From Maribacter sp. MMG018 (GTDB lineage: Bacteria; Bacteroidota; Bacteroidia; Flavobacteriales; Flavobacteriaceae), in assembly GCF_018100785.1 (NCBI RefSeq), contig NZ_JAGJEC010000001.1, positions 1,550,001-1,614,000 on the forward strand: a stretch of 64,000 bases of DNA. Reading direction: 5' to 3'. The stretch's first letter is position 1. Every line of letters begins with the position of its first letter. A model generated the notes under the pieces. It had not been told where the DNA came from. It did not search any database and saw nothing but the letters and a program-made list of their open reading frames with translations. Both the position numbers and the translations under genes were made by a program. Below are positions 47,231 through 47,866 of this stretch, piece by piece.

Positions 47231-47257
47231 AACAATCAGAAGTTATAAAACCCTACC
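47231..47257 (-). promoter_or_regulatory. bipartite element before fecR (putative ECF promoter)
   Basis: Read on the minus strand: GGTAGGGTTTT (47257 to 47247), 9 nt, GATTGTT (47237 to 47231), ending 24 nt before the fecR ATG. The same two blocks with the same 9-nt spacing occur on the plus strand at 47840-47866. The layout fits -35 and -10 parts of a promoter read by the neighbouring ECF sigma factor. Confidence 0.6.
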
Positions 47258-47282
47258 TCTAATTTAATAATATTGATTTTCT

Positions 47283-47795
47283 TTAGATTCCATCTATTTT
47301 TTTCCTTAGGTTTTTAAGGGCCAAATGCATCCTTTTTTCTATTGCCTTTATGCTAACGCCTTCCATTTCGGCAATTTCAGCATATTTTTTTCCATCTATC
47401 CTATTAAGTAGAAATGTGGTACGTTGGTTGTCGGGCAAACCGTTTAACGCATTTTCCAGTTTTTCTTTAAACTGGGTTTCCTCTAAAATAAATTCAGGAT
47501 TTTCGTTGGTGGTCTTTAATGTTTTGTCTGCATACTTCAATCGCACCTTTTCCGCTTTTATAACATTTAGGTAAAGGTTGTTGGCAACCGTGTATAAAAA
47601 AGATTTAGCTTTTGCCGGCGAAACCTTCGAACAGTTTTCCCAAAGTTTTACAAAGGCCTCTTGTACGGCATCGTTAGCTTTTTCTTCGTTGCCAAACTTA
47701 TAGTAGATGTAATTGAAAATGGTTTTGGAGTAGTCGTTGAATATAGAACTGTAGACATTTTCCTTACATACGTTTTGTTTGTCCTCGTTTTTCAA
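47283..47795 (-). CDS. RNA polymerase sigma-70 factor, ECF subfamily (Bacteroidetes FecI-like)
   Basis: 170 aa, start TTG at 47795. Region 2 is FNDYSKTIFNYIYYKFG with DAVQEAFVKLWENCSKVSPA; region 4 is LPDNQRTTFLLNRIDGKKYA and VSIKAIEKRMHLALKNLRKK. The N-terminus length matches relatives, which supports the TTG. It would be held by FecR and released when the TonB receptor binds its ligand. A perfect TATCTTTG box (47810-47817, minus) lies 14 nt upstream, so the sigma gene is likely expressed by the housekeeping polymerase rather than only by itself. Confidence 0.93.
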   Translation of the reverse strand: MKNEDKQNVCKENVYSSIFNDYSKTIFNYIYYKFGNEEKANDAVQEAFVKLWENCSKVSPAKAKSFLYTVANNLYLNVIKAEKVRLKYADKTLKTTNENPEFILEETQFKEKLENALNGLPDNQRTTFLLNRIDGKKYAEIAEMEGVSIKAIEKRMHLALKNLRKKIDGI

Positions 47796-47809
47796 CTGTT
47801 CGTTTTTTT

Positions 47810-47817
47810 CAAAGATA
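47810..47817 (-). promoter_or_regulatory. -7 box of the sigma factor gene
   Basis: The minus strand reads TATCTTTG, an exact TAnnTTTG, 14 nt before the TTG start. No convincing TTTG lies 19-23 nt upstream; that stretch is poly-T/A. Confidence 0.5.
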
Positions 47818-47839
47818 TTTTAAAAAAAATAAAAAAGAA

Positions 47840-47866
47840 GGTAGGGTTTTTTTTTAGTGGATTGTT
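47840..47866 (+). promoter_or_regulatory. bipartite element before the repeat lipoprotein (putative ECF promoter)
   Basis: GGTAGGGTTTT (47840-47850), 9 nt, GATTGTT (47860-47866), ending 34 nt before the lipoprotein ATG. Identical in both blocks and in spacing to the site before fecR, while the 9-nt spacers and flanks differ. It points to the same sigma factor controlling both. Confidence 0.6.

Follow-up and report, generated by a model that had tools for sequence, protein, structure and literature searches.

Bipartite elements flanking an ECF sigma gene of Maribacter are probably promoters read by its product and recur before micropeptide genes and a putative small RNA

Introduction

FecI/FecR/FecA systems combine an ECF sigma factor, a FecR anti-sigma factor and a TonB-dependent receptor in one locus, with a promoter before the regulator/receptor operon; the receptor carries an N-terminal STN signalling domain, and its binding of a ligand activates the system. 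To our knowledge, the promoters of FecI-like sigma factors in the phylum Bacteroidota are mostly unknown. A 64-kb stretch of DNA from Maribacter sp. MMG018, called the window below, contains a locus of this layout, in which two copies of a bipartite element flank the sigma gene (Table 1). Are these elements promoters of the sigma factor encoded between them, and which other genes lie behind the same element?

Table 1 Features of the sigma locus (positions within the window).
Feature	Position	Strand	Basis
TonB-dependent receptor, 852 aa	43786-46344	minus	Pfam Plug + CarbopepD_reg_2
FecR-type anti-sigma factor/transducer, 303 aa	46295-47206	minus	Pfam FecR + FecR_C
ECF promoter of fecR-receptor operon (predicted)	47257-47231	minus	exact match to GGTAGGGTTTT-N9-GATTGTT
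ECF sigma factor, 170 aa, TTG start	47283-47795	minus	Pfam Sigma70_r2 + r4_2
Housekeeping (-7, TAnnTTTG) box TATCTTTG of sigma gene	47817-47810	minus	14 nt before TTG start at 47795
ECF promoter of divergent lipoprotein gene (predicted)	47840-47866	plus	exact match to GGTAGGGTTTT-N9-GATTGTT
Lipoprotein, 477 aa	47901-49334	plus	mature N-terminus CQDEFEE

Results

Two rare, identical elements flank the sigma gene

A preliminary description of this DNA had reported two identical bipartite elements, one on each strand, ending 24-34 nt before a start codon. Both copies matched exactly, and the distances were as described: on the fecR side, where GGTAGGGT forms the -35-like block and GATTGTT the -10-like block, the fecR ATG (47206) lies 24 nt downstream, and the lipoprotein ATG (47901) lies 34 nt past the plus-strand element. 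With up to three mismatches allowed, the full pattern had these two matches in the window and no others, and shuffled windows gave a mean of 0.13 matches, with two matches in 0/100 shuffles. Across the genome, four sites fitted the full pattern at two mismatches and none fitted the reversed pattern. The shorter form GTAGGGT-N14-TTGTT had six exact matches: four of these matches are intergenic sites of the putative regulon, and the other two (C10:91483 and C10:875402) were rejected as promoters because both lie inside open frames. Random hits in coding sequence, which the preliminary description would have counted against its proposal, were therefore few. Its picture of a regulon confined to one locus was too narrow, as two more exact copies and one copy with a single mismatch precede three other conserved units elsewhere in the same genome.

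The sigma protein, 94% identical to its Maribacter thermophilus counterpart, had TIGR02985 as its best NCBIfam match (118.8 bits, below the cut-off of 126.4). As had been described, its gene carries a housekeeping box instead of the element: TATCTTTG fits TAnnTTTG, given as the housekeeping box of the phylum in passages of PMC9723704 and PMC7366714, and TAnnTTTG was found upstream of the sigma gene in 69/80 relatives, compared with 9/80 and 12/80 for two control patterns. The GTAGGGT block of the lipoprotein element is 23 nt upstream of the TATCTTTG box on the opposite strand, so that the divergent sigma and lipoprotein promoters overlap and two polymerases could compete there.

The receptor gene adjoins fecR and overlaps its end. 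In the encoded protein, a short N-terminal extension precedes a carboxypeptidase-regulatory-like domain; an STN domain on the receptor was matched without significance (E 0.099 across 22 residues, and E 0.039 for FecR_C), and the best hit to a solved structure, from a search with a 21-sequence profile, was a Dps protein at E 0.11. The lipoprotein matched no Pfam or NCBIfam family at E 0.001, and matches to it occur in 136/199 family genomes, its own included. Its relatives are 456-602 aa long in 75/79 cases, and the 50 that were aligned are mostly 34-46% identical to the window's protein. The acidic starts after the Cys (CQDEFEE in the window, similar in relatives) resemble, without equalling, the minimal surface export signal of Capnocytophaga lipoproteins, K-(D/E)2 or Q-A-(D/E)2 after the Cys, described in a section of PMC5080379. 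In the predicted structure (mean pLDDT 80.4, pTM 0.44), the sole Foldseek match with E <0.001, a DNA polymerase beta clamp, was judged meaningless (rmsd 19.7, TM 0.11-0.14); the lipocalin-like structures 4zgf, 5byp and 4qrl came next, as weak matches with probability 1.00 and target TM 0.48-0.54. By eye, the N-terminal half of the model resembles two copies of one alpha/beta unit (residues ~66-140 and ~150-229), after which lipocalin-like units follow.

Both elements are conserved at the sigma loci of relatives

From 343 loci encoding a relative of the sigma factor, the best 80 named ones were picked by sigma protein similarity, with the motif unused. They include Maribacter, Zobellia, Pseudozobellia, Arenibacter, Allomuricauda/Flagellimonas, Pricia, Kriegella and others; many are close kin and not independent samples, and the spacers nonetheless differ freely. 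GTAGGGT-N14-TTGTT stood before the divergent lipoprotein gene in 80/80 loci (77 exact, 3 with one mismatch) and between sigma and fecR in 76/80 (66 exact, 10 with one mismatch). The expectation that blocks and spacing would be conserved in relatives was thus borne out at 156/160 promoter positions. In the four loci missing the fecR-side element (L161, L194, L197 and L209), the fetched stretch contained no fecR: L161 and L194 stop at a contig edge, and L197 and L209 are without a nearby fecR. In the assembly of L209, a fecR (60% identical) lies elsewhere (L083): it is preceded by an exact element, and the 6 kb retrieved there contain no sigma gene.

The reversed pattern, searched on both sides of the 80 loci, gave no exact match and a single one-mismatch match. 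With the spacer altered by -3 or +3, one-mismatch matches appeared on the fecR side in 27/80 and 33/80 loci, and on the lipoprotein side the -3 change gave 12/80 one-mismatch matches and one exact match; altered spacers still yield such matches because the sequence context is T-rich. Within the first 30 loci, own included, there were 61 GTAGGGT blocks, 54 of them with TGTT within reach, and 53/54 had one and the same spacing (the remaining 7 were dropped from this count). In 67/79 measured loci, the lipoprotein element was followed by the first ATG of a long frame at a distance of 33-37 nt.

Promoter and sigma factor change together

A search of the window's genome with the FecI-like family TIGR02985 gave 31 matches, four of them above the curated cut-off. 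Among the 30 ECF-type loci examined in this genome, one, the window's own, had the exact element; two others had one-mismatch matches, both on the strand opposite the sigma gene.

We also examined 19 of the family's lipoprotein loci with lower scores; a GTAGG-type element occupied the expected place in 16, comprising 13 of a second type (GTAGGNR) and 3 with GTAGGGT, and the other three had drifted further. The second-type -10 block was mostly CCTGTT (9/13), and GTAGGAATTTTT-N8-CCTGTT recurred letter for letter in five. We compared the sigma factors in the segments that we take to be the region 4.2 helix and region 2.4, aligning 21 of 81 first-type sigmas. Those with GTAGGGT/RTTGTT promoters have S(V/I)KAIEKR(M/I)HLA in the former and YLN..KA(E/D)KVR in the latter, and the second-type sigmas have STKAVEKRIYGAL and MLN..AHQKV in 13/13. 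The sigmas of L345-L347 combine SVKAVEKRM with FLN..AHKKV, and their promoters combine GTAGGGT with TTTGTT or GCTGTT; the 3 drifted loci have a third form of the recognition helix. In the sequences compared, promoter and sigma helix change together across distant relatives, as direct recognition by sigma predicts.

The two elements at the locus are thus very probably promoters of this sigma factor. The presence of the exact element at only one of the 30 ECF-type loci and the co-change also support the earlier proposal that the sigma factor reads these sites and switches on its anti-sigma/receptor pair and the lipoprotein. Alternatively, the element could be the site of a separate transcription factor, either an activator or a repressor, which the long conserved -35-like block (GGTAGGGTWTTT) would fit. 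We regard this as highly improbable, given the fixed spacing of two blocks, the near-fixed distance to the lipoprotein start codon, the single exact copy among the ECF-type loci and the co-change with sigma regions 2.4 and 4.2.

The element recurs before two micropeptide units

The strict pattern was searched in 76 genomes of the family; 66 of these were taken in order and 10 were picked for strong lipoprotein hits, which biases the counts upward. It gave 67 matches in 26/76 genomes, compared with 4 for the reversed pattern, and was absent from 50/76, some of which have a drifted form. Outside the sigma locus there were 38 matches, all of them retrieved: 20 in three recurring units, 2 of core type (L083, L096) and 16 other or unclear, the last mostly at the starts of single exported proteins and some in open frames. 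Lineage-specific exported proteins or lipoproteins were seen 35-100 nt past further exact copies in L070, L071, L085, L092 and others. All three recurring units are present in the window's genome, and each was tested by first finding an encoded or neighbouring protein and then the element.

The first unit encodes a 55-aa single-span membrane peptide (MDV..EII..SA........FGY), with its own element at C10:812455. A protein search found it in 26/199 family genomes at 28 places, where the element was exact in 14 and had one mismatch in 7, two in 3, four in 1 and five in 3; of the five-mismatch places, two are spurious matches and the third is the second copy of a tandem pair. At most two mismatches were thus present at 24/28 places (24/26 without the two spurious ones), and the reversed pattern gave 0/28. 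The four-mismatch homologue is that of G096, a genome in which both the sigma factor and the lipoprotein promoter belong to the second (GTAGGAA) type. The leaders of the 55-aa gene contain CATCC in 21/24, and pairing of their start region averaged 0.78 versus 0.68 for mononucleotide-shuffled leaders, being higher in 19/24; pairing in the window genome's own leader was lower (0.54 versus 0.65 shuffled). A hairpin masking the start in this leader is suggestive only.

The second unit is a 26-34-aa single-span membrane peptide gene convergent with a cyclophilin-FKBP isomerase gene, and its own site (C1:1849270) has one mismatch. Next to FKBP genes in the best 30 of 199 genomes, the element occurred in 16/30 loci (10 exact, 6 with one mismatch; reversed pattern, 0/30 at two mismatches) and was absent from 14/30. 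Of the 16 element-bearing loci, 15 have the 26-34-aa peptide.

The third unit is a putative small RNA

The third unit is a predicted terminator-ended transcript divergent from a pyridoxamine-oxidase-like gene, with its own element at C10:47020. In the best 30 pyridoxamine-oxidase-like loci, the element was found in 25/30 (22 exact, 3 with one mismatch) and was missing from 5/30; the reversed pattern gave 0 matches at one mismatch and 7 at two. All 25 copies have a hairpin and T-run, ending 91-267 nt after the element, and share a near-invariant core, the 14-nt TGTGTTTAGGTTGG being exact in 20/25. The window genome's own copy, including the terminator, had a fold z of -3.2. Rfam returned no match for the 10 loci submitted.

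We favour a non-coding RNA, because ATG frames end after 5-46 codons and the core is without synonymous drift; a tiny peptide is retained as a rival reading. The unlikely alternative that the transcript is a terminated leader or a tiny-peptide gene draws on the ATG held by the core (ATGTGTTTAGGTTGG would read MCLGW), on the ATG frame that overlaps the core in 21/25 copies, and on longest ATG frames of 4-30 aa within the transcript. However, the core-overlapping frames end at very different places, because the following T-run differs in length; the copies with an intact TGTGTTTAGGTTGG keep it without one synonymous change, and the window genome's own copy has no core ATG, so that conservation seems to act on the letters and not on a peptide. 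Also against this alternative, the terminator stem in 18 aligned copies shows both-side changes in 4/7 consensus pairs (one pair is broken in 6), and guaA, which follows further downstream in 6/9 genomes, does so at varying distances and is missing from that place in the remaining 3.

Several copies of the putative RNA have additional features. Those of L280, L284, L286, L291 and L297 show, by eye, an extra 5' stem-loop ahead of the core, often of the CTTCAT...ATGAAG type and several with a CCCCAA loop. The copy of L072 (G026) is followed ~90 nt further on by a partial second core copy (C4:193910). In the window's own genome (C10, L035:3742-3771), a second strong terminator-like hairpin lies ~106 nt after that of the RNA, and a second short transcript may exist.

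We also searched for targets of the RNA. In 20 of the RNA-bearing genomes, an 18-nt complement of the core, with 3 mismatches, gave 85 matches in all, 20 of which were the RNA gene itself; the 65 non-self matches were not in excess over the reversed control (72). A shorter seed at starts, CAACCTAAA-N0-12-ATGAA, gave 72 matches, 16 of them self, leaving 56 versus 22 for the reversed and 30 for one permuted seed, an approximately twofold excess over two controls; 36/56 are at plausible starts. A ccoP-like gene that recurred in 3 genomes was rejected as a target, since in 4 leaders with the seed or most of it, read in frame, the seed codes for Gln-Pro-Lys ending the preceding gene. A homologue of this gene is present in 28/30 genomes searched; 14 of the leaders were read, and no start was located for the remaining 14, of which 10 are outside the RNA-bearing set. 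Neither the long-complement nor the seed search established a conserved target. In G103 (L330:1501), the start region of a lipoprotein/amidohydrolase mRNA is near-perfectly complementary to the core over ~26 nt, spanning the start codon, and the matches listed for the other 19 genomes include no close counterpart.

Discussion

The elements, their conservation, the target list and the co-change with sigma are established here at the level of sequence, and from them we consider it highly likely that the ECF sigma factor encoded between the two elements reads them as its promoters and that the regulon takes in the micropeptide and RNA units. A rival reading accepts the locus promoters and holds that the micropeptide and RNA sites are read by another sigma factor of the same specificity, or are unused. 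The distant loci are linked by sequence alone, and the genome has many ECF-type matches, yet these sites share one consensus and spacing although their spacers are unrelated, the other ECF-type loci among the 30 lack an exact element, and G096, with its second-type sigma/lipoprotein promoter, is without GTAGGGT at its 55-aa gene too. We therefore give this rival little credence and return to a single sigma factor serving all of these sites.

The best reading is a surface-signalling sigma factor of the FecI/FecR type that works like sigma-E and has an arm made up of micropeptides and a small RNA; transcription itself, the direction of signalling and the function of the RNA are what we infer in the following scheme. 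At fixed spacing, the region 4.2 helix would contact GTAGGGT as the -35 element, and region 2.4 would contact RTTGTT as the -10 element. The housekeeping sigma factor would keep the sigma gene on. As in known families, FecR would restrain the ECF sigma factor at the inner membrane and release it upon a signal from the TonB-dependent receptor; once free, the sigma factor would drive fecR-receptor (feedback), the surface lipoprotein, the two single-span micropeptides and the small RNA, so that activation would raise receptor and lipoprotein at the surface. The head-to-head overlap of the sigma and lipoprotein promoters could act as a brake that damps sigma synthesis during activation, and the RNA core would presumably act on mRNAs.

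In E. coli, the small RNAs of sigma-E include MicA, RybB and MicL. In sigma-E systems, the sigma factor activates its own gene, small RNAs repress the mRNAs of envelope proteins, and the anti-sigma factor is destroyed by regulated proteolysis. As with sigma-E, a single ECF sigma factor appears, by sequence, to control envelope proteins as well as a small RNA (in the 25 element-bearing RNA loci); unlike sigma-E, a FecR/receptor locus stands in place of regulated proteolysis, and the sigma gene is not behind its own element, as the elements face the lipoprotein gene and fecR. FoxI/FoxJ of Fusobacterium nucleatum, as outlined in PMC11005410, also form a sigma-E response with a noncoding arm. The Maribacter system might be a Bacteroidota counterpart of sigma-E, a receptor/FecR-controlled sigma factor with noncoding and micropeptide arms; we hold this reading to be conceivable but doubtful. 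In its boldest form, ACAUCC in the leader of the 55-aa gene could mask the start codon by pairing with AUGGAUGU, and the RNA core UUUAGG would pair with CCUAAA in that leader and free the start codon, giving a coherent feed-forward switch.

The locus shares with FecI/FecR/FecA cell-surface signalling, the subject of the review PMC9249621, an ECF sigma factor (regions 2 and 4), an adjacent FecR and an adjacent TonB-dependent receptor. It differs in that the Maribacter promoter would also serve the lipoprotein gene on the other strand and, at distant sites, two micropeptide genes and the small RNA, and in that no STN signalling domain was recognised on the receptor. In Bacteroides thetaiotaomicron, passages of PMC12596196 place TGTT at about -10 of ECF-type promoters (SigW-1/SigH-1), and those of PMC7366714 place the -30/-10 promoter PM2 before the GibS RNA. 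TGTT near -10, proposed ECF recognition and a small RNA downstream are thus common to both organisms, whereas those passages do not mention a GTAGGGT block and the genes differ. Closer by, in the same family, ECF-type promoters listed for Flavobacterium psychrophilum SM6 in part of PMC9723704 include that of a putative RNA, Rfp11; unlike the Maribacter element, their -10 is a CGT box and the targets listed there include type IX secretion genes, and GTAGGG is absent from the main text. An RNA behind an ECF-type promoter is thus not without precedent in the phylum, because GibS and Rfp11, as presented in these sources (PMC7366714, PMC12596196, PMC9723704), each follow non-canonical or ECF-type promoters. 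Excerpts matching the letters gtagggt together with Bacteroidetes were taken for primer or probe sequences. In the literature searched, we found no description of the promoter, the RNA, the two micropeptide families or their joint control; as far as that literature goes, the layout is the known one of a FecI/FecR/receptor locus, and the other four appear to be new.

Marine flavobacteria may have a compact system of surface response, as the presence of the element before micropeptide genes and an RNA suggests. One clade gains a long, testable promoter with a small target list, and the natural series of sigma/promoter pairs can be used for reading the -35 and -10 code. For a group of mainly marine flavobacteria, the findings also point to two micropeptides of the membrane and to a small RNA that is conserved, and together these may belong to a surface-to-RNA stress circuit, of which few have been described in the phylum.
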